From NCBI RefSeq assembly GCF_000787575.1, contig NW_012236525.1, positions 821,686 to 885,685 of the forward strand: a DNA stretch of 64,000 bases, given 5' to 3'. The first letter of the stretch is position 1, and each line of letters opens with the position of its first letter. The position numbers and the translations under genes are program-made. The notes beneath the pieces are model-generated. The model did no database searches, was not told the DNA's origin, and was given only the letters and a program-made list of their open reading frames with translations. This document shows positions 12,203-47,441 of the stretch, in pieces. This DNA comes from Acytostelium subglobosum LB1. Its lineage: Eukaryota > Evosea > Eumycetozoa > Acytosteliales > Acytosteliaceae.

Positions 12203-12236
<34 letters not shown>

Positions 12237-12623: not shown

Positions 12624-13137
12624 TGTTATTAATAATAGTTTGTATAATAGTTTGATTGTTTGATATTGTATTGTATTATATCTATATGATTAGATATTGT
12701 ATTGTATTGTATTGTTATCAAACACAACAACAACCTCAATCCTTTTATCTCTTGTTGTCTCAGATGGGTGGACAAGGCAATAGGAATCAAATAAAGTTCT
12801 GTTCTGTGTCTTTTCCAAAAGTTGATTTCAATTGGGATCTTAGCTGTGTGAGTAGTGTGGGTCAAGATTACTTTTGAACTTGCAAGAATGACAACAAACA
12901 CTTTGGAGCTCAAGATTGTCCTAAGATTCATCAATAGCATAAGACATCATATGATATGATGTAGATTCAATTCAATCAAAATCATCAATCAACCTATCAT
13001 TCCTCGGATTATATAAAATCTAAAGATATATTTCTGAAAACGTTACATGATGGACAGTAACTCAGGGGACCAAGAATACAGAAACGAAGAAAAATGCGAA
13101 AGTTAAAGACTTGAGGGGTTAATTGAGTTTGGCGTAC
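12624..13137. promoter_or_regulatory. Divergent intergenic region
   Basis: About 510 AT-rich bases lie between the endonuclease V start (minus) and the F-box/LRR-like start (plus). They contain TATTGTATTGTATT-type runs near 12660-12715. The small open frames here are not convincing. Confidence 0.5.
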
Positions 13138-20800: not shown

Positions 20801-20880
20801 TGCTGTCACTGTTGCTGCTGTCGGAGCTGTCAGAGCTGTCACTGCTGCTGCTGTCCTCCTCCTCGTGCTTGAAGGTGCCG
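14896..20880 (-). repeat. Mucin-like Ser/Thr repeat region of the giant gene
   Basis: About 1,800 codons are almost only Thr, Ser, Gly, Glu and Pro, in units such as GESSTTSTTDGTTSTT and TTTSEPTTSTTSSTTS (a unit of roughly 33-36 residues in the 18.8-20.2 kb part). Two small introns interrupt it (17322-17380 and 15720-15779). The complementary strand therefore shows long Val/Glu/Asp-rich open frames that are not genes. Such tails are usually heavily O-glycosylated. Confidence 0.85.
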
Positions 20881-23800
20881 GTTGCAGTCTGGAAGTAGAA
20901 TGTGAGCGTGACGGTCTTCTCGCCCTCCTCCTCGCTGGGCTCCACAGTGCATCCGACGCTTGAAGATGAGTAGACGATGATGTTGGAGCACTCCTCGCCG
21001 CCGACGTCAATCTCTGGCGACTCGTCCGACAGACCCAGGTTGCTACCCGAGATCATGATCTGGGTGGGGTTGTCCTTGTTGCCCTCGCTTGGACTGATCG
21101 AGTCAATTGACGGTCCGTCATACGAGAAGTCAGTGTTGATGTCACTGATCTGGTCGCCCAGGGTCACGAACAATGGGATGTTCTGGCCTCCACCGGATGG
21201 TGCAGTGAACACGATCTGATCACTTGAGTGTGAGTCCACAGAGACATCGTCCACGTTGAAGTTGACAGATGGCTCATTGTCGTCCTCCTCCAAGTTCTTG
21301 CCGCTGATCGTTATCGAGAAACGACCATCGATTGATCCGGAGCTTGGTGAGATCGAGTCAATCTTTGGCGCACCATAATATTCAAATGACACGCTGTCTG
21401 ATGATTGCTGGCCGTCGACCTCCACCTGGACATCGACGTCGCCCTCCTCTGACGAGGTTGGAGTGCTGCATGTCAATCGTTCGTCGTCGCCCGATCCAGG
21501 GATCACGCTCACACCCGAGCAGTCACCCGAGCCAATCTTGACTGATGGACTATCACCAAAGTTCTTTCCAGTGATCGTGACCAGAGTGTTCCTGCTCATC
21601 CTGCCCTTCTCTGGTGAGATGCTGGATACAGATGGTGCTGATTGATTGATTGGGTGAGTGAGGGTTAGTATGTGATCATGATAATGTGAGTGGAATGATT
21701 CCAAACAACAACATACCATCGTATGAGAAGTAGTCGTTGGAGTCTGATGATTGAGTGCCGACTGTGACTTGGACGTTCTTGTTGGCGCCAGTACCCTTGG
21801 GTACCTTGCAGAGTACTTGGTTGTAGTCACTCCATGTGATCTCATCACATTCATTATCGCCAATGGATACGGTGTTGTTGGATGAGTCGCTGCCTGCTTG
21901 GTTGACCTCATCAGCCCAGTCTGCTGGCACAAAGTTGTCACCAGTGATCGTTATCCACTTGTCGCCCTTGGTTGGTGCCGAATAAGAGTTGGAGTCGACC
22001 ACGGGCTTGGAGTACTTGATCGTTGACGACACTGATTGGTTGCCAATGAATACCACCAAGTCCACGTCAGCGCCCACGCCCGATGGCGCGGTACATGTGA
22101 TCTGAGTGGAGCTGATCCAGTCGATGGTCTCACAATCCTGGTTGTTGATGGTGATGTTGGAGTCTGCGGGTGAGACACCGGCGGGCACAAAGTTGGTGCC
22201 AGTCAATGTGATTGACGATCCCTTGGTGTCGCTGTCTGAGACACTTGAGATGGTCGGTGCATTGTATGAGAATGTGTTGTCGTCTGTGTTCTCTTGGTCG
22301 CCGACAACGAGGCTGAGGGACAAGTCGCGTCCAATGCCAGGGGCGATCGAACATGAAACGTGAGTGTCGTCAATCCACGAGACAGAGTCGCATGAGTCGC
22401 CGTTGATTGTTAGGCTCGAGTCATCAGCGTCCACTCCACTTGGTACAAAGTTGGTGCCAACTATTGTGATGACCTCACCATCAGTCGCGGACTTGGGCAC
22501 GCTGGACACCTTTGGTGCATTGTATGAGTAGGTGACGTTGTCGCGCTCGGTGGCCTGGTCGCCAACCACGAGCTTGATTGAGATGTCCTTGCCAATGCCC
22601 TTGGGAGCCTGGGCCACGATCGTGTTGGAGTCCTTCCAAGTCGCATCCACCTCGTCATCTTTGATCTTCACGCTCGAGTCCTTGGCCTCGACATTGTTGG
22701 GCACAAAGTTGTATCCGGACAATGTGATCGAAGTGCCCTTGGTGTCACTCTTGGTGACCTTGGACACGGCTGGTGCCTTGTAGGTGAAGGTAATGTCGTC
22801 TGTGTTGGCCTGATCGCCCACCACCACTGCCATGCTCAGGTCCTTGCCGATGCCAGCTGGCGCCTTGCACGAGACATGAGTGTCGTCAATCCATGAAACA
22901 GAGGTACATGACGAGTTGTTGATGGTGACGTTGGAGTTTGATCCAGGGTCGACGCCACTTGGCACAAAGTTGGTTCCTTGGATTGTAATGGTGTCACCGT
23001 CTGTCGATGATTTGGGTGCCGAGGTGATAGTTGGCGCGGTGTATGAGTAGGTGACATTATCGCGATCAGTTGTCTGATTGCCCACAATCAATGTGATTGT
23101 GATGTTCTTGCCAATGCCTGCGGGAGCCTGTGACACAAGCGACTTGGAGTCGATCCATTGTGTGGTGGCTGCCGTAGTTGAGTCGCCGATGGTGACGTTG
23201 GAGTCTGCTGGGGAGACGCCCTGTGGCACAAAGTTGGTACCAGTGAATGTGATCTGGCCGCCTGGTGTGCCACACGAGGACACATTGGAGACTGATGGCG
23301 CCAAGTATGAGAACAAACTTGATGTCTGTGGACGCTGGCCGCCGATAACTATGTCGAGAGTCAGGTTCTTGCCAATGCCTGCGCGAGGACGGCATGCAAC
23401 CTGGGTGGAGCTAATCCACTGTACGTCTGGACAGAGTGTGTTGGCGATCGACACGTTTGAGCGCGTGCCAGGGTCGACTGCGTTTGGAACAAAGTTGGTT
23501 CCAATCATGGTGATGGTCGCATCGCCGTCTGTGGGTGCTTGTGGAACGGTTGTGATGTTGGGTGGCGCGTACGAGAATGTGATGTCGCTGTCGTTGTGCA
23601 AAGAGTGCTGTGTGCCGACCGAGAGGTCGATGGTCATGTTGGCACCAATGCCTGGAGCGACTGTGCATGACAGGTTGCCGGATGACGTCCAACTAATGTT
23701 CGCGCACTGTGTTCCATTGATCAACATGTAGCTTGTGGTCGAGTTGATTGTGATGTTGGCGTTGGCTGGGATGAAGTTGGTGCCGTACACCGTCAGTCGT

Positions 23801-26800
23801 CCACCATCTGTGCTCATATTGCCTGACGCAAGTGAGGTGATGTTGGGTGGCATGTAGGACATGTTGAATGACAACATGTTTGTTTGATTGGTCTGACCAC
23901 CAATATACACCATGTATGTGATGTTGGCGCCAATGCCAGCTGGGATGGCTCCAGTGATTAATGTTGAGTTTGTGAATGTGATGTTGTTCAACAAATGTTG
24001 GCCCAGTGTCACGTTGCTGTACTCGAGGCTGCCCTCGTATCGCGCTGTGTTCGTGTCATTGCCCAACAACTCATTTGGAGCAAAGTTGTAACCTGTGATG
24101 GTAACCTGGTCTCCACCATCAGTGCTGCTGGTGTTTGAACTTCCCGAGCTCTTCGAGATGGACAGCACAGTGGGTGGCTGGAAGGTGAGGGCGTCGGACG
24201 AGACGTTGGAGGACTGCTGGGAGACTGATCCATTGACTGAGATTGACTTGCCAATGCCGGGCAACATCCTGCAGACGATGCAGTCAAAGTCCACGGTCTC
24301 GCGGTATGACGTGTTCATCAGGACGTATGGGTCAAAGATCGCCACGCCATCCTCATCCACCTCGTGGTAGGGGTCGGTGGGGGTGGGGATGAGCCCGCCA
24401 TCGTCGTCCACGTATGTCTTGTTGTAGTAACAGTCCACCTCTTCGAAGCACACCACGTCGGTCGTGAAGTTGTTGATGGGGAGACCGATCGAGGCGTTGA
24501 ATACGAGCAGACCCTTGGGTCCGAGGTCTTGTCCAATGATCCAGAATGAGCCGCCAGCAGAGGTGTTGAATGGCTCTTGGATGACCTGGAAGATGATGGG
24601 CGGGTCATACTTGAATTCGGGTCCGTCTGTGAATGATTGCTTGTCCACACTGATGCCCACGCGACTTATGCCTGCGGCGGGGGGCACGACACATGTGGCG
24701 GTATTGTCGTCAATACGCTCAGAAATGCTGCATGGAGTGTCGCCAATGTTTACCTGTATCACCTCATTGTTGTCCTCGCCTGCCAGACCAAATGATGATC
24801 CGTACACAGTCATGATGTCGCCTCCGACTGTGGCCGAACGTGTAAGTGACACGCTCGTGATGACTGGCGTGGTGAAGTTGAGCGAGTGTTGCTGGGCTCC
24901 GGGAGTCAAAGTTGACTGGCCGGCGACCTCGACAGCGATAACCTTGTTGTAGCCAGTGCCGCTTGGTGAGATGATAAGGTACTCATTCGAGCTGTATTGG
25001 TAGGCGCGGTCCACGCTGAACAAGGTGTCGTCGACAGAGACAAGTATGTCGCTTTCGGACGTGGTGGACGAGACGAAGTTGTGTCCGGCGATTGTCACAC
25101 GACCACCTCCAATCGTTGGCAATGGCCATGTGCTAGTGGTGACTGATTGGATCACTGGCGCATCATAGACGAATTGGTAATCCAACAATGGAGTCTCCTG
25201 AGGCAGGTTACTAAGCGTGTTTGAATATGTGATTGGAACTATTCCAACACCTGAGCCAACTACACATGTGAGCACCTGACTACCATCAGATTGATCGACA
25301 ACTGATTGAGTCTGGCATGTTCTCGAAGATGGGTCCTGTCCAACAATGACCTGCACGCCTGGCTCGCTGAGCTTCCAACCTGCGACCGTGATCACATTGG
25401 TTGTGGAGACGGTGGGGCCAGAGAGTCCGGTGATAGACGAGACGATGGGGCCGGATGGACAGAGTGCGAGGATGTCCGCACCATGCTGGAACACGGTCAG
25501 GTTGGTCTTGGTGATCGCGCAGAGTTGACCTTGGTATGTTACGATGGCCAGTCCGTCCTGAGCGGTGCTCGCCTGGTCTTGGACAAAGTATGTCGAGTGT
25601 TGGTTGTACTTGTTAACGAGTGTGGCTGTCACAAGTGCGTTGTTGAGCACCTTGGTGATGAGCTGGATGCCGCGTGGAGTGATTGGGTATCCGTCTTCCA
25701 TGAGGAACTCGCACAGGTTAGGGTCATCCAAACGCAACAGCGACTGAAGCAATGGAGTGTTGATAAACAACTCCTTGAACTGTGTTGAGAAGAGGTATTG
25801 GATTGCCTGGTTGTGTGTCCAGTCTGTTGGGGTGGATGTTGATGACACCCATAGGCTGGCCATGACCTCTGTAGCGGTCATGTTTGTCGAGGACGAGTTG
25901 ATCGTGCTTTGGCATATGCCCAAGGACAGAAGGACAGCCTCCAGCGAGGATGAGTTGGTCAAGGCTGCGGGGAGGAGGTCAACGCATCGCTCGGAGCAGT
26001 TGTAGATGTGGTTGTATATCATGATCTCCTTGATTCCTTGTGTGGTCAGTGGGCTGGTTTCGTTCGAGGCTGCGAGCTTCGCAATCAAGTTGTTGGTAAA
26101 GGTCAACACATCGGTGAAGCCATTCTCGCGAACCACCGTGCTGATCGTCGACAAGTCGACTGTGTTGTCCGAGTTGCCATCAGTGTATGCAGTGCGCTGG
26201 CAATACTCCTCCTGGCAATCATCGTCATCTTCATCAATCAGATCCCACAAGTATGCTGTGATCCAGCCTTCGGACTTGGGTCCATTGCGCTGTTGAGTGC
26301 GTGTCGATGTAAAGTGCTCGATGTCTGTGCGCGAGGTGGTGGCGGTATTGGCATCGATGCCAATGATAACTGAGGCCTCGCTCTTGGGCAGGGTGGGGAA
26401 GACTGTGTCACGCAATGCCATTGAGAGCATGTTGATGTACGCGCCCTTCATAGCCACCTGCTCGTTCTCGACGATCTGTTCGAGTTGTGCCGAGACGGGC
26501 ACGGCAACATTCGCGGCCTGGGGCATGTTGGCATCGACGAATCCAAGCACGGCAGTTCGCACAGCCAGCTCAACGCATAGTCTACGGAAGTCCAACGAAT
26601 ACGCATTGGGGTCATTGTTGTTGTTTACGATTGATGCGATGTGGGAGTTCATGTCCGCGACGATAGTCATTGCTGGCATGGGTTCGGCAACTGCTGGCAC
26701 GCCAATGTATGATTCCTGTGAGGCGGCGGCGAGCACTTCCTGGACGGTCTTGAAAAGGAGCAAGAGGTTGGCGTCCGAGTCAGAGGTGTACAGGGGATGG

Positions 26801-29800
26801 AATGTGCCATTGACCTGCGCCATCTCGTATTCAATGGGCTTGCCATCAGTGTCCACAATCTTGAGGTCAGTGTGCGTATCGTGGAGCTGCAGCTTGATGC
26901 TTGCGTTGTTCCAGTTACCAGTGTATGTGAAGAGACCAAGGGCGTCAGTCTGGATGGTCATAGCGCCAGGTGTAGTGTCACAGAAGGGGCCAGTGCATCC
27001 GGGGTCGGCCACATAGAGCGTGGTGTTCACGAACCAAGGGTTGACCAATGCTTCCTGGTATGGCGTGACGTCGAAGCCGCTAGTACTTGTTGGCGATCCG
27101 CCAGGGGTAGTCGTCGATTTGAGAAGTCGCTGATGGGGGACATTTCGAGGCGTTGTGTCAAGAATAACGCGGCCACTGATGGTGGTTGGTGCGATCACCT
27201 TGGTCTGGTTGCATGCGCCAGACGTGCAGTTGTCCGACATATACCTGAAGGCCATCTCCTTGAGCATAAGTGAGCCAGCAGAGGGGACGCCTGGAACACA
27301 GGCAACAAGTCCACCGCCTGCCACCGACTTGGTGTTGAAGGCACCAAGACACAATAGGCTATCCTTGAAGCCAATCCTGCTGCGATCAATATCTGAACGC
27401 CATTGACGCAGGCCGATGGGCACGTCATGAGTCGTGGCAAAGTCGGTTGTCAATCGTTGCTCGGTGATTGCGTAGGTGTTGGGGATGATCACTGACTTGG
27501 CGGGCAGGGTGATGGACAAGGGGACACCGAGTGGCGTCCATACATCAGATTGATAGCCTGCGGACAAGATCACGCCGGAGCCACCACTGGGTACGCTAGT
27601 GAGTGAGTTGGCGTTGGGTGAGGGATCACTGAGTAGTGTGGCGAGGGTGGCAAAGGCAGAGGGGATGGGCTGGAGGTTGGTCTTGTAGATGAAGGGGTAG
27701 GTGGCTTGGACGGACGCGATCAACTCTGATGCGTTGGCGAACGAGTGGCAGAGGAATGAGTGGCCGAACGACAGGTCTTGGTCTTGTTTGACGCGAAGAT
27801 GGTAGTCGTTGGGGAACCACGAGTCGGGGTGAGAGGCCGGCGTCTTGTACAGGGCCAGGTCACCAGTGAGTGGCACTGGGAAGCCCTCAAGGGTGTGGAC
27901 GATGTGGAATCCTGCGCTCTGGTTGGTGTCCAGGCGGAATGATGCAAAGCCCTTGCCGAGTGTATTGTGCACGTTGTTCTTACCATTGATCGACTTTGAT
28001 TGAGTGCCAGACAGGTCATCATACCATGGGCGGTCATTGTACATGAAGAATCCAGTCTGTGAGTACTGTGCATTCTGCTCGAGCTGCATCAATGTGCGGC
28101 CAAGACAGCTGCTTGAGTTGGATATCGATGCCTCCAAATCAAATGATGACGAGCTTGAGCTCAAGTACATGTAGCTTTGGGAGAATGGCAACTTGCGGGC
28201 GAACCACCAGCTCACGCGATCTCCATTGGGTGCGACACATCCTGGTACTGGCGCGATGTGATCAAACTTCAAACCATTGGATGTCTGGTCTCCATTGCTC
28301 ACTGTGAGTGTCGCGCTGCCACTAGCATTGACCGCGGGTATCGTTGCGATCAGCTGTGTGTCGGTCAATGATGTGATTGGGATGGTGATGGCAGTGTTGG
28401 TCGAGCCGAGGCGGAGCGAGGTGATGTTGGAGTAGAAGTTGGTGCCGATGATGGTCACCTCCACGGACTGGCTGTAGATGACAGAAGTCGGGGAGACTGA
28501 GGTGAGGGTTGGCGTGGGGTAGACATAGGTCAACTGAGTGGCGATGGACATTGTGGCACCATTGATGGCAGTGACAGAGACTTGTTGTGGCACGCTCAAT
28601 GATGGAGCGACACATGTCAACATGGATGAGCTGATCACCGTGATGTTGCCACATGATTGTGATCCAATGAACACGACTGTCAAGCCTTGAACAAATCCTG
28701 AGCCTGTCAATGTGATTGATGTTGACGTGTTGATGAGGACAGTCGAGGGCGAGATGGTGTTGATGATTGGCGACGGGTCGATGTAGGCAAAGGACACGTG
28801 GTTGGAGGCTTTGACATCGTTGATCACATACAGGTCCTGGTTGCCCAGTGCTGATTGAACAGATGGTGCAGTAAACACGATCGTAGTGTTGGTAATCGAG
28901 ACGATGGTGTAGTTGGTCGCGCCATTGGTCACCGCGGACAGCCATCCAAAGAAGTTAGTGCCTGTTAATGTGATCGAGGTGGACTCAGTGAACACTGCTG
29001 TTGTGGGCGTAATCGATGTGATTGATGGTGTGGGTGCGATGTACACCAGGTCGACGCTATTGGACGACATATACTCGTTGTAGAGCAAGACCATCTTGGG
29101 TCCAAGCGAAGGGATCATAGGGGTTTGGACGACCATCCATGTGGAGTTGGACGCGAGTACTGGAGCTGCCATACCGCCAATGACGACGGTGGACACGCCT
29201 GGCACAAACGCAAAGCCGACCAGGGTGACCTGGGCTGGCTCGCTAAAGACCACGGACAATGGTGTGATTGAGGTGATGCCGGCGAGTGGTGGAATGTAGT
29301 TCAGTGGCTGGGCGTTGGACATGGTGGCCTCGTTGGTGACAGTGACATTGAGTGTGGCACTGGATGAGCGGACTGGCGCCAAACACACCATCATAGTACT
29401 GTTGACAAACTGTGTGATTGGGCAGACGATGCCGCCAACGAGTACCAAGGACATGCCACTCACGAATCCTGATCCGGCCACGGTGAGGACTGGGGCGGGG
29501 TCATTGAACATGATAACTGAGGGGTTGAGCGAGTTGATGGCTGGCACTGGGGCGATGTAGCTGATGGCCTTGGAGTTGGACGTGATGTACTCGTTGGACA
29601 CGATCACAAGTCGCACGCCAGTGGATGACATGGGCGGGGCATTGCACCAGATCACCGTTGGCGACACGCTGGTCGTTGGACAATACGTTCCATTGATGCG
29701 CACTTGCGACATGCCATTGATGAAACCACTTCCATCTATCTCGAGTGTGGTCGTCTCCGTGAATGTGGCGACGGTCGGGCTGATCGATGTGATTGATGGC

Positions 29801-32800
29801 GTGGGTGGCACATACTCAAAAGACACATTGTTGGACTTGTAGACATCGTTGGCCACCCAGATAGTCTGCGCACCAGAGTAGCTACGCATGGGTGCCGTGA
29901 ACATGATGTTTGTCGAGTTGATCGATGTGATGGTGAAGTTCATCGCGCCGACCGTGACGACCGTAAGCCAGTTGTAGAAGCCTGTGCCGGTCAGCGTCAT
30001 TTGGGAGGACTGCGTGACGATGGCGGTCGCTGGGGTGATGGAGGTGATCACGGGCGCGGCCGGGATGTACTTGATCATCCAGACGTTGGACCACAGGTAA
30101 TCATTAGACACGCTCACTGATCTGTTTCCAAATGATGTCGAGACCACAGGTGATTGGACTATGAGCGAGGACGAGGTGCCAGACACGTATGTGGCGTACA
30201 CACCACCGATGAGCACTCGCGAGCCGGTGCCTGCCATGAAGTTGGCGCCATACACGGTGATCAGGGTCGGTTGATCGATCAGAACGACGTCGGGCTGGAC
30301 CGAGCTGATCGAGGGCTGGGGTGGGACATAGGACAGGTACACAGAGTTGGACGATACATTTTGATTGAGTACGGTCACTTGTTGCTGGAATGGTATGGTG
30401 GCGATGGGAGGAGTGAAGATGAGTGTGGTCGAGTTGACAATGGTGGTTGGACAACTGAATGCGCCGACCATGGCCACGGACATGTTTGTTACGAAGTTCG
30501 CACCATTGATTGTCACGCTTGATGGACTGAAGTAAATGACGCTCCATGGTGTGAGCGAGGTGATGTTGGGCGTTGGCGGGATGAAGTTGATCGACAATGT
30601 GTTAGACACGGTGCCATCGTTGGTGACGGTGACCGCGCGCGAGCCGGTAGTCGACACGGCACTGGCTGTACATCTGATCGAGGTGGACGTCACACTGATC
30701 GTTGGACAGAGTGTCGTGTCGATCCTGACCGTGGACATTCCGTTGGAGAAGTTGGTTCCATTGACCTGCAACACAAAGTCCTGATTGATCACGGGCGTCG
30801 ATGGACTGATCGCTGTGATGGCGGGCACGGGTGGGCTGTAGACCACAAACATCGCGTTTGATCGCACGCCCTCGTTGACAACCGTGACGTTCTCGGTGCC
30901 TGAGTGGGAGAATATGGGCGCCACAAACTGGATGCTGGACGCGGTGACCAAGTTGACAGTGCAATTGATGTTGTTGGACATCTGCACGTAGGACATGCCG
31001 GGGACAAAGCCCGATCCAGACATCGTGACAATGGTTGTGGTGGTGTAGGTCAAACGCGACGGATAGACCGATGTGAGTACGGGTGTTGGTGGCGCAAATG
31101 TCACCTGCAACACGTTGGCGGACCATCCCTCGGTTGTGATGGCCACGTCCTTGGCACCAGTGGTCGACGACGCGGCTGGCTGACAAATGATCGTGGTGTA
31201 GTTCTGGAAACTTATTGGACATAATGCTGCCCCAACTGTGACCTGGGTCGAGCCGACAAACTCCCAGCCTGTCAAAGTGAGCTTGGCTGGTGCGTTGAAG
31301 GTTGTGGACAGTGGCTGCACGGATGTGAGCGAGGGGACGGGAGCGACATATGTCTCCTGCATGCTGCCAGTCTTGTCCTCATTGATCACCATCACGGTCT
31401 TGCTTCCGGACGTTTTGAGCACGGGCGAGTAACAAGTGATCCTGTTGGCCGACACAACATAGACATCGGTACAGTTGATGCCGTCCACGGTCACGTAGGA
31501 CATACCACTGGCGTAGCCGGTACCGTTGATGGTCAGCTGAGTCATGTGAGTGAATGTCACACTGGGTGGATAGATGCTGGTGATGGTAGGGGTTGGCGCA
31601 ACATATGTAATGTTCAAGTTTGATGATTTAATCATCTCGTTCATCACATAAAGTTGCTTGATACCGGTAGTTGTCAATGCTGGAACATTCACAAATAGCT
31701 GGCTGGATGTGTAGCCGGTCACAGCTGCAACACGACCATCGACCATCACCTGAGTTACTCCACTAACAAAGTTATTGCCAGTCACTACAACCTTGGTGAC
31801 CTCATTGAATATCACTGTGTTTGGAGTGACCGAGACAATAGTTGGCACGGGGACTAGGGTGGGGTGGGATAGTTCCAGTGATGGGGTGTGTTAGACATGA
31901 TTGATTGATTGATTGATTGAATGGATGAATGAGACATACCAACATAGTTGAAGGGCATTTCATTTGAGGCTTGGTTCTCGTTGTAGACGATGACGGGCTT
32001 GGTGCCACTGGTGGTGAATATTGGAGGCTGGCAAGAGACCTGAGTGGTACTGACCACTTGTACTGCAGTACAATCTTGTCCATTAATCTTTACTGTTGTG
32101 ATACCAGTCATATACTTTGTACCAGTCATTGTTATCCTAGAGTTCTGATTCAACAACATAACAGGTGGATTGATGTTTGTGATCGTTGGTGTTGGGGCTG
32201 GATATGTTTGATCAAGTTGTGTCAGATTGATTGATCGAGAGAGTGATTGAATGATTGAATGAGTGATACATACGGACATAGGATAAGGTGACGGCAGAGT
32301 TGGAGTTCTTGTTCTCATTGTATATGATGAGGGTCATGGTGGTGCTGGCTGATTGAGTGGGCGCAACACAAATGATTGATGTGGCAGTCATTGTTGTGAC
32401 ACTGCATGACCAACCTGATAATGAAGACTTGACCGATGTCAATGCAATCGAAACAAAGTTGGTTCCAATGATTGTTATATTGTTAGTCTTAGTATAGTCC
32501 AAACTTGATGGTGTAACAGATGTCACAGTTGGAGTTGGTGCTAAGGTGATTGGATGATTGATTGAGTGAGTAAGTGTGATCGGAATAGTTCCAGTCAGTG
32601 AGGATGGGACTAAATAACTTACGTATGTAGTTGAGTGCAAAGGTGTTGGAGGATACACCTTGGTTGAGTACTACAATGTTGGTCGTGCCTTGGGAGGTAC
32701 GGGTAGGTGCGGCAAAGATGATGGTGTTGGGCATAACGAGGATGGCTGGGAATGTGTTGGTGCCAGACATAAGTATGGACATGCCAGGGATGAAGTTGAG

Positions 32801-34361
32801 TCCAGTGATGGTGAGATTGGTCGCAACAGTGTATATAATAGGCATTGGACTGATATTGTTGATCACTGGTGTTGGTGCGACGAATGTCACCGTGACCTGA
32901 TTGGACGATGGTGTCGTAGGATTGTTTACAACGACCAATTTGGGACCGGTTGTGATCTGAGGTGGTAGATCACATGTGATCAAAGTATAGTTCACGAATG
33001 TCATTGAGCAGAACTGACCAGCAACAGTGACCGTCGAGTTGGGATTGACAAATCCAGTTCCACTGATACTCAATGTATTAAGTCGATTGTATATCAAGCC
33101 AGAGTTGGGTGTGATCGATGTGATTGATGGGGTTGGCACTGTATTGGGGGTCAGGGGTCAGGGTCAAGGGTCAGGGGTCAGGGGATGGGGATGGGATAGT
33201 TCCAGCCTCAATATAGTACATACTCTTGAAGGTCAATGGGAGGAGTGCGGACTTGTACTGTTTGACATTGACAACTTGTACATTTTGGGTTCCTGGCGCA
33301 GAGACAGCCTGTGCCGTGCACTCCAAGTATGTCCTGTTGACTGTTCCATCGATAATTGGGCAGTCAACTCCATTGATGTTCACAACAGAGATTGGTGTCT
33401 TGGTGAAGTCTGAAGTGATCACAACATGTTAGTTTATGGGATGAATGAATGAGCGAATGATACATACTTGTTCCAATGAGAGTGATCACGGAGTCGATGT
33501 TGAATGGGATACTGGTTGGCTGGAGGGAGTAGAGGACGGGGGTGGGCTCGAGGAAGAGGAGACCAACTTGGTTGGAGTTGATGACGTCGTTGCTGACAAA
33601 GACTGGCTTGATGCCATCGGCTGACGCGTCTTGGGTGGCACAGATGATCTGAGTGGATGTGGTCGAGATCACAGGACAGTCCTTCGTGCCAATGGTCACC
33701 GTGGAGAGACCAGAGTAGAAGTTGTTGCCCTTGATCGTCAACAGTGGGGGATCGACTCGCACCACCGTACTGGGCGTCAACAACTGGATGGTTGGCATGG
33801 TGTACTGGATGTACTGTGTGGACGTTGAGCCGAATGGCGCCGCGGACACTGTCAATGTTTTGACACCCGGTGTCGATGTGGACTGCAGCGCACAGATGAT
33901 CCTTGTCGTTGACAATGATTGAGGTTGACATCTGACGCCACCCACCGTCACTATTGAAGGTGGAATGAATCCACTACCCTGTATCGTTATGGTCGTGTCC
34001 ACATTGAATGGGGCATAAGGCGGAGTTATTGAAGATATTGATGGAGCACCTAGTTATTATATGATTGTGATTGATTGAGTGATTGAGTGATTGAGTGATT
34101 GAATGAGTGAGTGAGTGATCATCATATCATGTATGTCTTCAATCATATTCCAAAAGTAAGAGTGTGTGTTTGATTGATCAATCAAACACCCCACATCAAT
34201 CAATCACTCGTTTAAACGAACGGTCGTTCGGCATTTTGATGATCATTACCATAAGTAGGTTGTAATAATAATAACAAAGATAACATAACCAATAGGATAT
34301 TGATATACCCTGGTTTGCTACCAAACATGGTATGACTACCATGCAGTATGTGTGTCTTCAT
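14896..34361 (-). CDS. Giant secreted TIG-repeat protein with degenerate DNase II domain and mucin-like tail
   Basis: Ten exons: 34250-34361, 33468-34049, 33224-33409, 32623-33138, 32274-32540, 31940-32197, 21717-31853, 17381-21637, 15780-17321 and 14896-15719. All nine introns are phase 1 and the total is about 6,226 aa. The order is a signal peptide with a long hydrophobic run (about residues 18-36), about 21 TIG/IPT repeats (40-1845), a DNase II-like domain (about 1845-2190), a linker (to about 2770), about 16 more TIG repeats (to about 4270), an Asp/Ser and a Gly-rich patch, then Ser/Thr-rich repeats to the end. TIG domains are beta-sandwich adhesion modules. In the DNase II part the HxK motifs read LGK (1939-1941) and RSR (2131-2133), so activity seems lost. 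No membrane or GPI signal is seen at the C-terminus, so secretion is inferred. It is paralogous to the gene at 36004. Confidence 0.85.
22261..23302 (-). repeat. Duplicated two-TIG unit in the giant gene
   Basis: Two adjacent units of about 520 bases (22776-23302 and 22261-22775) each encode a pair of TIG domains, A then B. Both A copies carry a VTYSY end and PxGIGK(N/D)I. Both B copies carry SWIDDTHVSC and VVGDQxNTDD. The pairs are more alike than neighbouring domains, which points to duplication of a two-domain block. Confidence 0.7.
27255..28240 (-). other. DNase II-like domain, active-site motifs lost
   Basis: The segment begins GCVAPNGDRVSWWFARKLP, like the DNase II start (PVDWW-x-YKLP). 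It continues with LGRTLMQLEQN, FFMYNDRPW, GFHIVHTLEGFPVPL and HSFLCHSF, all in DNase II order. The first HxK site reads LGK in TLGKGFASF. The second reads DRSR where the family has DHSK. The later GDxNR element reads LGAFNT. Confidence 0.8.
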
Positions 34362-36003
34362 CGCTCGATGTGCTGTGATGACGCTCAATATCTGCAAGAT
34401 GGTCTCGAGTGTATGATTGATTGATATAAATGTATGAATGGATATGAATAAGGATAAGTGTAAGTATACTTGTTTGATGTGATGGTGATGGGTAAGTTGA
34501 CTAATCGATTCCCAATGCGGATGTGGATGTAAGTAAGTTCGCGCAAAGACCCTTTGACAATGACACTCTCCACCAATCATTGGGGCAAACAAGGTAGATT
34601 CTACCCGACAGACGTCATTGATTAACTGACTGGCTGCCCCATTAAAGCCGAAGTAAATCCTGACACCAAGTTGATCTTGACAAGGTAGGTCTGGTCAGTC
34701 GAGGTCCAGTTCCAACAATATGTGGAGGTATGTGGTTGTGGTGGGCACAAACGTAATTCCAACTCAAACGGCAAAGACGACGAATTGATGGAAGGGCATG
34801 GCCAGCCCTCCAACCACCCTCTGACATTGATGATGCCTTGAACAAGGTGTGACCCTTTACCATATCACCTGACTGACTGACTCCTCGAACAAGTCGAATA
34901 ATTAATCATTCTTCAAATTAATGTATCTTTGCTGAAGTTGGTTGTTTGCCCCAACGCTGAAAGTCCTCGAGAGGTTGCTGGGAGGCAAAGGGCCATTTGA
35001 TTGATATCCAATGGTTGCGATCGTCTAACCTATCGATAGTCGTTCAGTGGTATGGTACCCCATAATCGACAAATCGCAGGACCTCAGATTCCAATCGAAT
35101 GTACCTTGCACATGCTCTGGCGATCACCCCTTCCGCGTCTATTTTTAAAAACTGACACCTTTGATCAGAACTTGTGGAGCTCACTCTCACACATCCATCC
35201 AATCAAGCAATCAAAGGGAGACCCAAGGGGTGTGTTCATGACCACCCACCAACCCATCACAAGTTCTGCGTGTCCAAGTCTACTATCTCTCTTACTTACT
35301 TAAACCAAACACACATGTGATGATGATGAACATGGTGTAGCAGAATCAACGAACTAAACTCAACTGATAAATGAGTGGCGACGCGACTATACAGTGGACC
35401 ACTTCCTCGACGACGACGTTTGGAATCGACCCAATGCATGGATTGGAGGGCCATGTGATGTGGTGGTCCCGTCAGTTCTTTGGTTCAAGGTAGTATCAGA
35501 GGTTGATAGGCATTTGCTGCTTATGATGGGATGAGAGCAGACTACGCGCGAGTCTTCGGCTACTAAGTGGTCTTGGATTGCCTTGCCTCAAAGCTCGCTG
35601 GCTCGATCAATCAATCAATCAATCACATCAAACATCAAATCAAACAGGCAATCAAAGACAAGACAAGACAAGACAGCAGAAGGCAACAGTAGCATCAATC
35701 TCCCCGAGTTGTAGCTTCCCTGTCAACCTCGTTCTTTGCCTCAAGCCCTAGGCTTCCCTGACACGCGATCCAGACTTCCAACCTTGAACAACCTCGAGCT
35801 TACTTGGCAACACGCCCAGGCCAAACTCCTAGACATACTCCCAATCGCCGCGACAATACCCAATCCCATTCATTCAATCAATCAATCCATCAAGGGTCAC
35901 TCAATCACTCAATCACTCACTCACTCACAAAGATACAACTTGTCATCAACATCCATCATCAACTTCAACAACATCAACAACATATTAACAACTTCAACAA
36001 AGT
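34362..36003. promoter_or_regulatory. Divergent promoter region between the two TIG-DNase II genes
   Basis: About 1.64 kb separate the two start codons. Near 35130-35170 is a TATTTTTAAAAA stretch, and near 35850-35990 are TCAATCAATC and CATCAACA runs that look like the 5' leader of the plus-strand gene. Short open frames on both strands (for example minus 34622-34813) show no family match or splice support. A sequence CCCATAA at 35057 resembles the Dictyostelium snRNA upstream element but stands alone. Confidence 0.45.
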
Positions 36004-39000
36004 ATGTGGCAGCGACACCACAACACTAATCAGTTGCTATGGAAAGCAATGATTGTTGTTGGCGCCATATGCGTATTGGTGTTGCCAGGCTGCTACGCCG
36101 AACCCACCATCACTGCAATGTCGCCACTCACCTCTTGGATAGGAGGCAATACAAGATTCATGATAGCCGGTGACGAGTTTCCCTCCGACCCCAGAATATA
36201 CATTCGCTCAATTGCTGGCGTCAGAGTACGAATGGACACCAAGGGCACGGGCACCAACCCCTGGACCTTTGTTGTGCCCGACTATCCCGGCACCACGCCC
36301 CACAACCGACCCAACATGCAAGCCTGTCGTCTCGAGATCTACTTTGGCGATGACGACGACGAACAATTATTCAAATGGTTCGATGGTTTCCGTTACCTTG
36401 GTATGTTGTTATTTTTGATTGATTGAGTGGAACCGTTCCGTCCCATAACATTTGTTTAACATTTTCCCCACCCACACTCACCCCACTTGATCAATCAATC
36501 AATCAAAGTTCCAACACTGGATACGATTGGCCCTGATCGTGGATTCTTGAACAGTGGAGGATACTTAATCCGAATGACTGGAAACAACCTTAGACTTGCC
36601 AACAATGACTTCACTCCATCGTTAACAATTGCCGGACACACCATCAATGCCCATGCATTCACAAGTACAACCGTTGACTTCTACTTGCCAGACCACGACT
36701 CCATTGGAAACTACAACGTTGAGCTTGAGTTGTACAGTGGACGACGAGTCACATGTCGTGATCAATTTGCTTATGGAGGTAGGTTGTAGTGGACTTGGAC
36801 TTGGCGCAGACAATAACTAACCACACTCAATTGCGCATGATATGTAGTACCATCGATCAATAACTTCACACCAAAGATTGGAACATCTGGCACGGGTCAT
36901 TTGGTAACGTTCACATTGATTAATATGATTGGTGGAGCAACTGATTATACAGTGTCCATCACAGTCGATGGTAATCAATGTAATAATATCAATGTAATAA
37001 GTAATACTCAAGTATCATGTAATGTTCCAAGCGTGAACTTGGCCCCAGGTGAGCTCCGTGAAGTCTCATTCCAAATCCGAGTCGGCAACCAACTAGTGAT
37101 GGGAACGCCAAAGTTCACTCACTATCGTAAGTCATCTCACCCATTCAATCAATCAATCACACCGGGGAATCATCCCACTCACTCAACCAATCAATCAATC
37201 ATCACTGAACCAATCACTCACCCACTCAATCAATAATAGACCCAAAGGTAGTCACAGTATCACCTGATCGTGGCCTCGTGATTGGAGGCACATTGATGCG
37301 CATCACTGGAACATACTTGCACAAGGCACATTCTGTGCTGATTGGTGGCGTGGCTTGTCAGATCAAGAAACAGGTATCTAATGAAATCCGCTGTCTGACT
37401 GGCGCCTTGACCTTTGCCGATGGCGTCTGGGAGGTCACGAGCAATGTCCAGGTGATCTACAATGGTGGAGCGACCTACTACCCGCCCGTGGACCAGACCT
37501 TCCTCTATGCCGCACCCTACCTCACCAGCCTCAGCCCATCAGTGATCACCGACAAAGGCGACTACTACATCACGATGAAGGGACACCATCTGGACCTGGC
37601 CGGCGCGTGGAAGATTGGAACAGAAATGGATTGGAACACCGTGGGCAATGTCGTCCAGCGTGTCTCGCTGCACATTAAGCTGGACTCCCGTCAGTTCAAG
37701 AACGCAGGACTTGTGGACGTGCAAGTGGCCGCCAAGGGCTACAGCTCCAACAAGATTCAGCTCATGATTGGCCAGCCCACTCTCACGGCCGACGTTACAC
37801 CCAGCACCGGCTACATGCACCTTGCCACACCCATCCGCATCACCACGCACAACTTCCCTCTGGTTCCCACCACCACCAACCTTGACTCGATCGTCAAGTT
37901 CTTCATCGACGGCCGTCCCTGCACCACCCTGGTCCAAGTCGATCAGAACACATTCACTTGTGTGGCGCCAAAGGGCCTCAACGCCATCGCCGCACCCATC
38001 TCATTCACGCTCTACAATGGCCTATACACGTTCACATCGGACAAGAGGTTCACGTACTGGGTGCCAGCCATCACGAGTCTGGAGCAGTCCAATCGCGTCC
38101 CCAAGGGCACCGGCCGATTCCGTCTGCTTGGCACGCATCTGGACATCGCGACCGGCGTCACGGTCAACGAAGTGGACATTGCCAACTTTTTGGTGGCGTG
38201 CACGGTCGAGGCCACCAAGATCGAGTGCCCCATGCCCTCCAACTCACCAGGCGGCTACAACGTCCAGTTGATGGTCAATGATGTAGGGTTCTCCGCGCCC
38301 ACCAACCTCGTCTATGAAGGCCCGCACATCGACGCCATCAGGCCACACCAGGGCACATACAACAAGAACATCCTGGTCACGATCACTGGCACGGGCTTTG
38401 GCACGGACAACAGCAAGGTGCGCGTGGAGATCGGCATCGACACGTGCCTAAACGCGCGCATACTGCCGGCCGTCGGTCTGGTCGAGCGCATCGAGTGCCA
38501 GCGCGTGGCCAATGGCGGCCAATCGTCCGACGGCGTCACGGTCTACGTGACCAACCCGACGACCAATCTCGAGGTCGAGTCAATCGAGAACTTGCAGTTC
38601 ATGGCCAACGCGATCTCGTGTCTTGGACGCCGCGAGGACGACGGCTCGCACTCGCCCGTCGACTGGTGGTTCATCTACAAGATACGCGGCCACGGCAACT
38701 ACTACCTCTACATCGACAGCACAATGGACCGCCTCCAGCGCTACACGCCCCTGCAGCCCATCAACGCCAACGACCCGCTGAGCCCGCTGGTCGCCACGTA
38801 TGACCAGTACCGCAACTACTACTACATGTTCTTCAATGATCAGACGGGCAAGCGCACGGACCTTGGTGGACGTCATGCTGAGAAGTCACACGGCACATAT
38901 GGACATGTGAAGGGCTTCATCATATACGACAGTGATCTGACGGGCATCCATGTCACACATTCCAATCCATTGTTCCCATCGACTTCCGACCTATCGGCCA

Positions 39001-42000
39001 ATGCATTCAATGGCATTGGCAGTGGTCTCAAGCTATTGGGTGCGGCTGACCTCAACCAACACTTCTTCTGCTACCAATACCCTGATATGGATACCATCAT
39101 GAGTACCCTCGTTCGCTCCAGACCATTCCTAATGAAGCCCTACCGAGTTTTCAACCCATCTGGATGGACTCAACCAGAAATTGTAAGTGTTAGTTACCCT
39201 CATCACTTTAACCAAACCCTTGTACTAACCCTACCCTTACCCTTGCCCTCGCCCTCGCCCTAACCCTCGCCCTCGACCCTTACCCTAACCCTCGCACTAT
39301 CACTCGTTTCTTCATCTTAACCTTGCCTCACCCTTACCCTTGCCCTCGCCCCAACCCCCGCGCTAATCCTCAACCCTACCCTTAACCCTTGCCCTCACCC
39401 TAATATTTAGTTAGCCAACTGGAGATACTATGACTATGTCTATAGCATGTTTGGCTTGGCTCAGAGGACAGTCACTGGTACAAACCCAGCCATTGAAACT
39501 GAAAAGACTATCCGCCGCGCTTGTATGAACAGCATCGCCGACACTGCCAACTTGGACAACATCTGCCATTGGAGTACCAACTTTAACATCCAAGGACTGG
39601 GCCCCGCCATCTACTTCCAAAAGACCAACACCAAGGTCTCGGGAGACTACCCTGCCGCCGACATCCCGCGACCAGTCACACTCTCGCCCTACATCCTTGC
39701 CAACGCCAGGGACACGACCTTGTACGAGGGCATCGACCTGTGGATGGTGGCCGCCGCCACAATCGGCCGCAAGATGTTTGTCGAAACTTTCTTCAACGGA
39801 GGCGTCCTACAGGTGGAGACCAACGAGTACCTTATCAACGTGGGTGTGCTCGACCTGCCACCCTACCTCTCCACGCAGACCCCGGGCATTGGCGGCGTCA
39901 CCTACAGCGACTGCGAGTTCAGCTCCAAGAGCGGCCACGAGCACGCCAAGCTCGGCTTCCCCGTGTACCCGGCGTACGACGGCGCAGCCTACAACGCCAA
40001 CGAGAACATGTTCTGTGTGGGCGACCTCAACCGCCACAATGGCCAGTTGAAGCGTGGTGGTGGCATCCTGTGCTTCCAGCACCCAACCCTCGCCTACCAG
40101 TTCAACCGCATGGTGCGAGTCTACAACTCAAAGAACGCACTTGGCATCGTACACCAGCGCCCCGTCGACGGCATGTTCCTGTTCATGCCCATCGTGCAGC
40201 CGATCCAGCTGACGCGCGCTCTGGGCTGGGCCGACGACATTGTGGTCGAGCTCAAGGACTCGATTAATGGCGCGCACGTCACTCGCATGCCCCAGGACAT
40301 CCTGACCATCACGTCGGCCACCGCCACCCACCCCTTTGATGTGATTGCTAAGTTCTCGGCCTTGAGGACGGCCCTTGTGATGACGGGCGGCAACACTGAG
40401 ATATCGCTGGTCGAGACTCCGCCCTTGTTGGCCGGCCAAGACGACATCATGAACTACGTAGCCGACGACACCTTCTCAATCCACTATATCGCCTACAACC
40501 CATCGGTATCAATCTGTGACTTTGTGTTTGGCATGACAGAGTGCACCAAGGACAATGCACGCCGCACTCACCTCGTCAACCCTGGTGGCCCGGCGGTCTT
40601 CCCCACCGCATTCCTGAGTCCATACGGCCAGCGCCAACTTGTAAGGACGTTTGATGTGGCCACGTCTGAGGATCATTTGATCATTGAATTTGTGAAGAGG
40701 ATGAGGACTGCCTTGAGCTCGGTTGCTCCAATGACTGTCGCCGTCGACACCACATTGCCCCTGAGCAAGATACGCAGTGATGGACCATTCATCATGCGAA
40801 ACAATGCCATTCTATGTGAAGATGAGTTGGCCTACCTTGTGACTGCCATGCACATCTATCAATCCTCCGGAGCCACCGATGGCAACACACTTCTCTTCAA
40901 CATTGGAGATGACGCGCCAAACTGGGCCAACGGAGTCCTTGTGGCCATCGCCAAGAAGATCTACAACGTATGTCATTCCTTCATCCTGGAACTATTCCAT
41001 CACTCAATCAATCACACTCTGGAACCATCCCAATGACTGACACAATCACTCGCGCAACATATAGTCTATCCTTGACTTGAATGACCAATCAACAGCCTTC
41101 CAGAATTGTTACTTAAACATGGTACCCAACATGGACGACATTGGAAACTACAACGAGTATGTACTGATTGATTGATCGATGGAATCATTCCACTTACTAA
41201 CCCAACCCCTCCCCAATATTCCAGGGCCGACCCATCTGTGTTGAACCCAACCCAAGTTCTACTATACCATAGGTCAGCTGCAGCAGCTTATGATTTGATG
41301 AGCAACACCTTTAGCAATGGTGGCGGCGGTAGGTCTGTAAGATTAGCCGATGATGACATGGTGCCTTGGACTGTGATGTTGAGGAAGCTGTCTCAGTTCC
41401 GCCGCTCGGATAATATCAACTCGTTGTCCGACCTTTACATGACACTCAATGATGACGACACCAGTCCCGATGACCCATGGTACCAAACCAAGACCAACAA
41501 CGACATTCTGGAGAACAACTATCTGGTCGAGCCACAGGTCTGGTGGATGGACGACGACGACGATCACTTCATGCCCGACAATGGCGGCGCTCCCGACAGC
41601 TCAGAGGCCGCCGATCCAAGTATCATCTCCCTTTTCGCCCTGTTCAGCCCGCCAACGTCCAAGTCTAAGTCCACGGTAGCTGCCGCCACGCGCAGTGAAG
41701 ACATGGCCAGGGACTCAGACACTACATCCGCGGTTTACTTGCGCCAGGATGACTTTGAGGACGTGCTCGCGATCCATGAGTTGCTCAACAAGTCGGTCAC
41801 ATTCTCGGTCAGGGACATCCTGTCCACACTGACCGAGGATCAGGTGTTGAGCATGAATGACGCAATGGAGAAGTGGGTCAACATCCAGGGCAAGAACCAG
41901 GCGATACAGGTGTTGTTGCGCGACCCCATGAACCAGACAAGCGACCAGCCAGTGCGCTTCATCTCCGAGCTCAGTGAGGATAACATTGGCAATGAGATTG

Positions 42001-43592
42001 ATCTGTGCTTCAAGAATAATGTGGCGCAGGTCTGCTCAGGTCCCTCGATCACATCGATCACATACTTCCTCGAGTCGGCCATTCGCGCACAAGCGTCATC
42101 CCGCCGCAAATTTGGCGATCTCGATGTATACTTCCTGCCGCGACCCTATGGCTATGTTGGCTCGATCTCGTCGGGCATCGATGGCATAGCCATCGCCACA
42201 TTCAATTCCAAACTCTGCGACATCCAAATGATGACGCGGGTACAGTTCAACGCTGAACAGCAATTCGAGACACTATGCTCTCGCGTCGGTCCAATCGTGA
42301 CCAATGTCAGCCCACTCTCTGGATCCACATCTGGAGGCGATAAGATCACTGTGGATGGCCTTCGCTTCAACTCGTCCGTGACCGTGAGGTTCAGCGATAT
42401 GTTCTGTGAGAGCGTCACCGTTGTCTCATCGTCCCGCCTAACATGTCTGACACCCGCACATGTCGGAACCTCGCACCCCATCCTCCTCTCCACAGCGCAG
42501 ACCATCTTCAATCTCCAGCGCACCACCTACCTCTTCTCCTACGACGCCCCCACTATCTCTTCGGTCGCCCCCTCTACAGCCGATAGCAATGGATTCCAGA
42601 TCATCACAATCACCGGCACCAACTTTGGCTCGGACAGTGATTTGGTCGAAGTCACCGTGGACAACATACACAGCTGCTGGCCAATTGTGGGCATCGACTC
42701 TCAGAACATCGCGTGCTACTCGCCAGAGGGTGTCGGCAAGTTCAAGTCGGTGCAGGTCGATGTTGATGGACAGCAGTCTAAGTACGACATGGCTACAATG
42801 GCAGCGAGCACCTTTGACTATGAGAGCCCAACGGTGAGCGAGTTTGTGCCAGCCAACGGTGACCCCAGCGACTACATTGTCATCCACGGCGATGGCTTTG
42901 GTGACCCCGACAACGGCGACCCTGAGCCCGTGCTCTACCTCGACGACAAAGTTGTGGACGTGGTCAACTTCACCAACAACTACATCATGTTCCAGCTCGA
43001 TCATGGCGTTGCACAACAGTCTCTGTCGATCCAGGTCGGTGACCAGGTGCAGGAGACCAGCTTCACGTACTACCCCCCATACGCGGCATCCCTCGTCACG
43101 CCAGACGCACTCAGCACTCTGGGTGGCCTGCTCCAGCTCAATGGATATGGATGGGGCATGTCGTCGGACGACATTGACTACGTGCGCTTGGGTGACTCCA
43201 TCGAGTTGTCTTGCAACCCATTCGATGTGTTTGTCGAATGCACCATCCCTCCAGGAATCGGCGCCAACCTGTCCATCTCGGCATCAGTCGGAGATCAAGC
43301 ACTCCAGGTGGACGCCACGCTCACCGTCTCCTACTCGGCACCAACAATCACGTCGGCCACATTGATCAATGGTACACAGGTACAGGTTATTGGAAGTAAC
43401 TTTGTTCCATTGGACATGGGAGTGACATTTGACCCATCGACCTCATACCTCAACGTCACCTACATTGATGGCAGCAACACATTGTGTCACTCATTCGTCA
43501 GCGAGAGCTATATGGCATGCAATGTCACCTTGGCACCAACCACCATCACACTCTCAGTCGCTGGACAACTCTCCAACACCATCCAACTCTGA
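36004..43592 (+). CDS. Secreted TIG-repeat protein with apparently intact DNase II domain
   Basis: Seven exons: 36004-36400, 36509-36778, 36848-37126, 37240-39182, 39411-40967, 41065-41156 and 41225-43592, giving 2,301 aa in frame. The signal peptide reads MIVVGAICVLVLPGCYA after a polar lead. About eight TIG repeats come first (to about residue 775). The DNase II domain follows (about 778-1190): VDWWFIYKI at 789, GHVKGFIIYD with H871 and K873, GHEHAKL with H1141 and K1143, then FCVGDLNRHNGQLKRGGGILCF. These are the paired HxK sites of DNase II, an acid endonuclease of the phospholipase D-like fold. A linker with acidic patches comes next, then about five more TIG repeats (from about 1865). 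No membrane anchor is visible at the end. I infer an extracellular or endolysosomal DNA-cutting, matrix-binding protein. Confidence 0.85.
38620..40100 (+). other. DNase II catalytic domain within the TIG protein
   Basis: Both HxK motifs (38904-38912 and 39942-39950) and the GDLNR/RGGG element after the second one are present with family spacing. The domain is split by a 228-base intron (39183-39410). Its length, about 400 residues, is close to that of stand-alone DNase II. Confidence 0.82.
39183..39410 (+). repeat. Telomere-like repeat intron
   Basis: The intron between exons 4 and 5 is mostly CCCTAA, CCCTTA, CCCTTG and CCCTCG units over about 180 bases, on the coding-strand sense, with donor GTAAGT and acceptor ATTTAG. 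Confidence 0.85.
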
Positions 43593-43661: not shown

Positions 43662-45145
43662 TTATGGTGACATGACCATCATCTTGTTGGCTCGGGCCTC
43701 TCTGCGACGTCTGATCCTGCGCTTTACCAAGATGACTGTAGTGGCAATTGTAATGATCAGGAAAATGACTGAAGCTACAGCTATGACGATAAACACCTCT
43801 ACTATTCCAAATGGTGGGTGATAGATTTCCCGATGGCATAGTTCATATGGTCTATAGTTAGAATAGTGTAACAAGGTGAACTTTGAACTGACTGAGCATC
43901 TCTGACATTGTGGCACATTGATTCCAAATAATGTTTGATTGGTAGTGCTATTCAACAATTCATTGTGAGCTCGCACTGGGAGGTCATCAGACATTGCAAT
44001 AGGTGAGAAGCGACCAAACAACTCCTGGTCCTGGCTATCAACAAAGTATTGAAGACTACCTAGATCGTCATTGGAAACCCTGACCATTCGTCCACATCCA
44101 ATGAGGGAGTCGGAAGTTGAACTATTCTTTGATAGGATGACCCTAAGTGAGTTCATATTTGATTGATAGCTCCATCCATCGACATAGACAATCATGTCAA
44201 ATGAATTTGGTGCATATGTGATGTTGTTCTTAACATTGTATTCTGACCCAGTATCCAGCTGATTGAGTTGGACAGTAATGTTGAGTCCTGGAATTAATGT
44301 TATCAAGTTGTACAATCTTGAAGTTATGTTGTAGCTAGTACTAATGATTGATGAGTTCCAAGTGAATGTTGGAAGTTGTTTGATGACATTATGATCACTA
44401 TCCAACTCTTGGATCTCCACAACATTGATGTTGTAAGCATAGGCAGGGTCTGGATTCGTATCACGTTGTGGATAGAGCCATGATATGATAGTGGATGGAG
44501 TTGAGTTTGAATATATAAGTTGGGACCAGTATGGGAAATATGTTTCACAATAAGGTCCAGCAACATTGACGTAAAATTGTGTATCATGGCAGACACATTG
44601 ACCATTTATACAATCACCACGACCATGGCACTTCTCCTGTCCTTCCCAAAAAACTCCGCAATCCTCTGTTATAACACTTGGATCTAAATAATATTAGTAT
44701 CATTTAAATGATTTAATAAAGGAATATTAATGATTGTTTACTTACATATTGCCATTGATTCTTTGGTTTGATAAGATTCATTGTTGATAACCATGTTGAG
44801 GCTGGCATATCCTGGGGATACTTTTGGTAGTGTACATATTATTGTTGATTGATTATAATCCAAAATATCACATTTGATAGTTGAGTTAAATGTCACTGAA
44901 CAATATTGAATTGGATTATTTCCAAAGTATCCATGAATTGTGATAACACCACCATCAGTTGTTATTGGAGAGTATGATGAAACTATTGGATACTCTATTA
45001 TTAAATATTAATATATATTTAATTTATTGTTTAACAAAAGTATACCATACTTACTCAATTGTGTTTGGGAACCTGTCAAAGTTTCATTGGTACTCTTTAC
45101 AACAATGGAATATATTAATATTGAATAGATTATTAATTTAAACAT
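43662..45145 (-). CDS. Cell-surface receptor with TIG, EGF-like and ComC-type domain
   Basis: Exons 45055-45145, 44746-44994 and 43662-44683 give 453 aa. A signal peptide (MFKLIIYSILIYSIVV) is followed by one TIG domain (YPIVSSYSPITTDGGVITIHG). Next is an EGF-like domain (CHGRGDCINGQCVCHD). A domain of about 200 residues then resembles the ComC 'supersandwich' domain of dictyostelid receptors (YAPNSFDMIVYVDGWSYQ, FGRFSPIAMSDD). It ends with one membrane helix (VEVFIVIAVASVIFLIITIA) and a short basic tail (KRRIRRRREARANK). Proteins of this layout act at the cell surface in dictyostelid development; the ligand is unknown. The gene and its two introns are distinctly more AT-rich than the neighbours. 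It is tail-to-tail with the TIG-DNase II gene. Confidence 0.85.
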
Positions 45146-47279: not shown

Positions 47280-47441
47280 ACTTGTAACTCTTGGCTGGGT
47301 ATATATATATATGTTGTCAATCAATGTTCATTGTTGTCAATTGAATGATTGATTGATCAGTATAAAATAATATCTTTTAAGGTAGAGGACCACAAGGACT
47401 CAAGCCCTGTGTCCATCAAAAATCTGATCTTGGATTTTTAT

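Follow-up and report, generated by a model that had tools for sequence, protein, structure and literature searches.

TIG-repeat proteins with an embedded DNase II domain in Acytostelium subglobosum and a sister clade lacking the catalytic residues

DNase II enzymes (PF03265; solved chains 5i3e and 5unb) are canonically stand-alone proteins of approximately 350-400 residues. In Trichinella spiralis, 125 DNase II genes are predicted, of which one has the HKD motif (PMC4148230). DNase II activity is also found among the Gene Ontology (GO) terms enriched in the lineage-specific expansions of dictyostelids (PMC8535579), and the expansion as such is already known from that source. TIG repeats are immunoglobulin-like domains. 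They are the recognition modules of the Tgr proteins, which act in the adhesion and allorecognition of dictyostelids. Tgr proteins are described as transmembrane (PMC3188802, PMC12324515). The highly polymorphic recognition genes tgrB1 and tgrC1 (PMC4448137) have a common 523-bp promoter (PMC5288501) and were sought as paired, diverging genes (PMC12324515). Here, we describe a gene in which both domain types are joined. It lies in a 64,000-nt stretch of Acytostelium subglobosum LB1 (NW_012236525.1, positions 821,686 to 885,685, forward strand), called the window hereafter, to which all coordinates refer unless a contig is named. The gene, g1 (36004..43592, + strand), encodes a DNase II domain placed between two TIG arrays.

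The gene g1 consists of seven exons (36004-36400, 36509-36778, 36848-37126, 37240-39182, 39411-40967, 41065-41156 and 41225-43592) and encodes 2,301 residues. All introns are GT-AG, and among the sets of splice ends tried, a single combination stays open to one final stop, which bears out the coordinates, exon structure and length given in the initial annotation. In a Pfam search of the joined protein, both domains scored far above their cut-offs: TIG (PF01833) at 1.4e-87 (288 bits, 11 stretches) and DNase_II (PF03265) at 1.4e-30 (107.1 bits, cut-off 23). Scanned piecewise, the protein has one TIG match above cut-off in each of exons 1, 2 and 3, four in exon 4 upstream of DNase II and three in exon 7, i.e., ten stretches compared to the eleven of the whole-protein scan. 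The layout initially annotated, with DNase II between two TIG arrays, is therefore confirmed as an observation.

From the N-terminus onwards, and always on the + strand, g1 starts with a signal-peptide-like segment (residues 1-32; 36004..36099, with the cleavage point placed by eye). The N-terminal TIG array follows with seven stretches over exons 1-4 (36103..38609, by piecewise Pfam scan). The DNase II domain comprises approximately residues 775-1210 (38616..40149) and is split by the intron 39183-39410. Next to it lies a middle module of about 640 residues (1215-1860; 40164..42266, three exons), for which neither a Pfam nor an NCBIfam match was found. The C-terminal TIG array has three stretches by piecewise scan (42291..43589). 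The six most hydrophobic 19-residue windows all fall within the signal-like N-terminus, and Kyte-Doolittle hydropathy, the only measure applied, shows no transmembrane stretch outside this region, the C-terminal TIG array included. The NCBIfam repeat domain NF058597, named "choice-of-anchor Z", also matches the TIG arrays, with 32 bits in exon 7 of g1 and 311 bits over 13 stretches in g2, the neighbouring gene described below.

The genome of A. subglobosum holds more genes of this kind. In the one assembly covered (30.7 Mb, 56 contigs), a whole-genome search with the DNase_II profile gave 17 exon-level matches, which were sorted into 14 loci. Eleven of these are TIG-associated, meaning that TIG repeats share the frame of the DNase II domain or adjoin it on the same strand. 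Two are canonical stand-alone genes (C41, C55), and one is a divergent stand-alone gene (C36; L026 5072-7628, - strand), whose second motif reads H-E-K and which carries an acidic, Thr-rich insert by eye. A tree was built from 48 rows; the C36 gene and the bacterial row L067, which matches only in part and lies in a 352-residue frame, were left out. The TIG-associated loci fall into two clades, A and B, each supported at 100/100, and the bacterial and stand-alone genes are split from A and B together at 95/87. Clade A comprises seven loci, namely g1, C44, C47, two on C51 (C51:25k and C51:311k), C45:320k and C37:319k. Clade B comprises four, namely g2, C45:188k, C37:315k and C45:314k. With one protein of type A and one of type B as queries, the genome yielded no additional loci.

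The A loci share the same order of parts: a signal-like start, a TIG array, the DNase II domain, the middle module lacking a Pfam match (some 640 residues) and a second TIG array. This order is thus seen at six loci besides g1, and for this reason the layout of g1 is not attributed to chance. The middle module of g1 shows 32-38% conservation in its matches to the four closer A paralogues, and its matches to the A loci on C45 and C37 are weaker and in pieces. Signal-like N-termini were recognized by eye in all eleven TIG-DNase II loci. Some loci hold the fusion in a single frame. An open frame of 818 residues at C44 spans TIG together with the two DNase II halves. The A locus of C37 has TIG and a DNase II match over both halves in one frame of 821 residues, with TIG just below the cut-off. 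In g2, TIG, DNase II and TIG are found inside one open frame of 3,404 residues. Two B loci, C37:315k and C45:314k, have the DNase II domain directly after the signal-like start, and TIG was placed there by downstream frames or matches on the same strand, not by full gene models; at C37:315k, the nearest TIG matches are about 3.5 kb past the DNase II match. At C45:188k, a long run of N (C45 ~196.4k-204.9k) follows the TIG array and makes the C-terminal part of this B gene unreadable. An apparent frame of 5,950 residues at this locus was discarded as an artefact of the N run.

Three other explanations were rejected. The gene is not a single orphan, as eleven TIG-associated DNase II loci exist in the genome. 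A splice or assembly artefact was discarded because paralogues keep the part order and because C44 and g2 hold the parts in single frames. For the same two reasons, it is unlikely that the TIG and DNase II parts of g1 belong to separate transcripts, as judged from the sequence. Prokaryotic contamination does not agree with the seven exons of g1. The myosin II frame of the genome was also counted against contamination: it scores 1,221 bits with the top solved myosin II chains, which we take to be Dictyostelium chains, compared to 676 with the next group. As regards the layout, for which the initial annotation knew of no described protein, the TIG-DNase II-TIG polypeptide is real. It is no single curiosity: g1 is one of eleven such loci, and its neighbour is a catalytically degenerate sister.

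The catalytic residues separate the two clades. Motifs were aligned over 48 rows (7 A, 4 B, 2 stand-alone and 35 bacterial, with L067 omitted from the 36 bacterial loci). In g1, the first HxK is H871-V-K873 (38904..38912, + strand), the second is H1141-A-K1143 (39942..39950, + strand) and the GDLNR element covers residues 1167-1171 (40020..40034, + strand). The first HxK is followed by the Asp D879, and the spacing, HxK-x5-D, is identical in the aligned solved chain 5i3e. The four His and Lys residues and the GDLNR element lie at the places given in the initial annotation. All four catalytic His and Lys residues are kept in 7/7 A rows, in both canonical stand-alone rows and in the 35 bacterial rows. 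Within the GD-N element, G, D and N are likewise present in all seven A rows, as is the histidine of the HS motif. In clade B, by contrast, the second HxK is lost in every row (R-S-R, R-S-I, Q-S-H and E-A-Q), and none of the four has an in-register first HxK. Three B rows have another residue for the first His, and the Lys persists in two of these; in the fourth, C37:315k, a His aligns at the first motif, with an insertion and Arg in place of Lys. Part of the family signature is nevertheless retained in clade B, with the HS-motif histidine in 3/4 rows. The proposal that the DNase II of g1 is apparently active is supported by this comparison, because the sister clade lost the catalytic set and clade A kept it in all seven rows.

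Compared to the known DNase II family, the domain of g1 shows the Pfam match, the two HxK motifs, the GD-N element, RGGG and a signal-like N-terminus. In contrast to the canonical proteins, it contains long inserts and forms part of a TIG protein of 2,301 residues. One of the canonical stand-alone paralogues matches the solved chain 5i3e at 2.2e-34; its GHTKG and DHAKW...GDINR align with the motifs of that chain. In 33 of 36 bacterial DNase II loci, the frames are 332-468 residues long and largely filled by the match, and no TIG fusion was found among the 36. Two long frames, L062 and L063 (Planctomycete and Verrucomicrobium; 872 and 1,017 residues), are without TIG by Pfam; about 450-480 residues upstream of their domain have no Pfam match. 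Among viral contigs, 151 pattern matches were obtained and no TIG-DNase II relative was found by tblastn. The family of T. spiralis is similar in that it is large and lacks the HKD motif in nearly all copies, but the available text on it mentions neither a TIG fusion nor a pairing of active and inactive genes (PMC4148230). The report on dictyostelid expansions likewise points to more DNase II genes in this group; in its available part it gives the GO term only, with no domain layout, catalytic analysis or gene pairs (PMC8535579). In the open-access literature searched, no description of the fusion was found, and no paper combined the terms "TIG domain" and "DNase II", or "DNase II" and "dictyostelid". 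The architecture may be listed in InterPro, UniProt or dictyBase.

The gene beside g1 belongs to clade B. The gene g2 (14896..34361, - strand) has nine exons (34361-34250, 34049-33468, 33409-33224, 33138-32623, 32540-32274, 32197-31940, 31853-21717, 21637-17381 and 17321-14896) and encodes 6,246 residues, or 6,244 with an alternative donor. Its DNase II domain (27286..28245, - strand) has lost both HxK motifs, which read L-G-K and R-S-R. The protein ends in a Ser/Thr-rich tandem-repeat stalk of about 1,800 residues (14896..20330, - strand), 75% Ser and Thr overall. By hydropathy, g2 has no outstanding transmembrane stretch; its highest-scoring windows (up to 1.88) belong to the TIG array, and over the final 800 residues the values reach at most 0.74.

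The two genes are arranged head-to-head, with 1,642 bp between their assumed start codons (34362..36003). Two further divergent A/B pairs were found, on C37 (971 bp between assumed start codons) and C45 (868 bp). As a raw count, three of the four B genes thus lie head-to-head with an A gene; in compact genomes, divergent neighbours are often met with. Four of the seven A genes and one of the four B genes have no adjoining DNase II partner. The pair loci are diverged, the other pair members being 27-37% identical to g1 or g2 in their DNase II matches. The three pairs may nonetheless derive from a single ancestral pair and thus need not be independent events. The likeness to TgrB1/TgrC1 consists in the TIG repeats and in the short interval between diverging neighbours. 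The differences are that Tgr proteins are transmembrane and that the available descriptions of them mention no DNase II domain. Since neither g1 nor g2 has an outstanding transmembrane stretch by hydropathy, they were not classed as Tgr proteins.

On balance, we favour, with modest confidence, a reading in which the A proteins act as secreted acid nucleases that their TIG arrays tether to the surface of cells, matrix or prey, with the B proteins as pseudo-nuclease partners. The fusion, the signal-like start, the complete catalytic residues and the recurrence of the layout at seven paralogous loci are direct observations. The gene g1 would then give one very large protein of the secretory pathway, with a DNase II-type phosphodiesterase module between two immunoglobulin-like arrays. 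The arrays might hold the nuclease on the organism's own cells, in the extracellular matrix or on prey bacteria. There, it would cut DNA without metal ions and most strongly in acid, e.g., after uptake into a phagosome. A DNase II at a surface has a precedent, as one schistosome enzyme of this kind sits on the tegument, is independent of divalent cations and works over a broad pH range, with high activity in acid (PMC4349608). Prey DNA is one possible substrate. Another would be the extracellular DNA traps made by the sentinel cells of Dictyostelium slugs (PMC5758549). The B proteins, which keep the TIG and DNase II parts and have lost the catalytic residues, would be non-cutting partners that bind DNA or pair with A proteins through TIG, and B genes may be kept beside A genes for co-expression. 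The interpretation in the initial annotation is partly supported, namely as to the polypeptide with its complete catalytic motifs. The surface- or matrix-bound nuclease that it suggested would be a candidate for the turnover of DNA nets, feeding on bacterial DNA or the breakdown of biofilms.

Several observations weigh against the reading of A proteins as tethered nucleases. The DNase II domain of g1 is divergent: its best profile stretch covers positions 7-161 of 326 only, and exon 5 alone matches the profile only at 280-324. An A-type paralogue matches 5i3e at only 7.3e-5. In the tree, several A and B rows have long branches, which were flagged by the program. The one structure predicted, that of the g2 DNase II domain, gave a mean predicted local distance difference test score (pLDDT) of 50.2 and no support. 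The pH outside the cell may exceed the range of a classical DNase II. Finally, since g1 showed no membrane anchor, binding to a surface would fall to the TIG domains alone. As for the B proteins, they may be partners, decoys or remnants.

A purely digestive or matrix function is conceivable and is considered unlikely: the A proteins would be secreted or lysosomal feeding enzymes with TIG repeats as passive spacers, and the B proteins degenerate copies without a partner role. The T. spiralis family, with its single HKD-bearing gene among those predicted, is a precedent for it (PMC4148230). Selection on the coding sequences also bears on this point. The nonsynonymous (dN) and synonymous (dS) rates were compared by the Nei-Gojobori method in five pairs. 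For the A pairs, dN/dS was 0.22/0.63 (~0.34; C47 vs C51:311k), 0.26/1.60 (0.16; C47 vs C51:25k) and 0.36/1.83 (0.20; C51:25k vs C44), and for the B pair g2 vs C45:188k it was 0.51/1.07 (~0.47). Thus dN is below dS in four of the five pairs, and dS was not computable for the fifth, g1 vs C44. Coding constraint is present and is weaker in the B pair than in the three A pairs, a point in favour of this view. On the other hand, the B genes retain long open frames, of which that of g2 is an example, and signal-like N-termini, and the head-to-head arrangement is found at three diverged loci.

A recognition function was also considered and seems rather improbable. Each head-to-head A/B pair would be a co-regulated heterophilic pair for adhesion or self-recognition, like tgrB1/tgrC1, with the A fold as effector and the B fold as a non-cutting binding domain. 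The short intervals of the three pairs fit this idea, as do the clean split of the clades into catalytic and non-catalytic and the failure of the genome searches to gain further loci. The absence of an outstanding transmembrane stretch in g1 and g2, the A and B genes without partner and the possible single origin of the pairs speak against it. A more specific version, in which A and the dead B proteins (g2 on its giant Ser/Thr-rich stalk) pair via TIG and the cutting of DNA at the cell or matrix surface depends on the matching partner, can be given little probability; if true, such nuclease/pseudo-nuclease pairing would be an immune or self-recognition device of dictyostelids with an enzymatic effector. 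Equally doubtful is the notion that the A-type module is no longer a nuclease and serves as a DNA- or glycan-binding domain, which would agree with its strong divergence from canonical DNase II and its long insertions but not with seven A loci that keep the four catalytic residues, the named GD-N residues and the HS-motif histidine, while the sister clade lost the catalytic set.

Other frames of the window were also inspected. The convergent neighbour of g1 (43662-45007, - strand) has an EGF-like domain, and inspection by eye shows a hydrophobic segment at its C-terminus. Its frame and the g1 end are separated by 70 bp, and its product looks like a ComC/Tgr-like surface protein. In the genome, two matches were obtained to Pfam models that bear the name of ComC, a Dictyostelium protein, one above the cut-off and one below; together with the myosin II scores, they agree with a dictyostelid. 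Further on, a frame of 581 residues (45582-47327, - strand) has as sole Pfam match RebB, the "killing trait" (E 0.01), below cut-off and probably by chance. On the other side of g2, a frame of 574 residues (10965-12689, - strand) contains an Endonuclease V domain (7.8e-59), which about 370 residues precede.

In one genome, TIG arrays are thus joined to a nuclease module at eleven loci, of which seven appear intact as nucleases and four code for pseudo-nucleases. The family offers a route to the handling of extracellular DNA. Moreover, its apparently active and its inactive members form a natural series, in which it becomes testable what the DNase II fold does other than catalysis. With some of its genes lying back-to-back with sisters that lost the cutting residues, a tethered system for DNA degradation or recognition can be tested directly.

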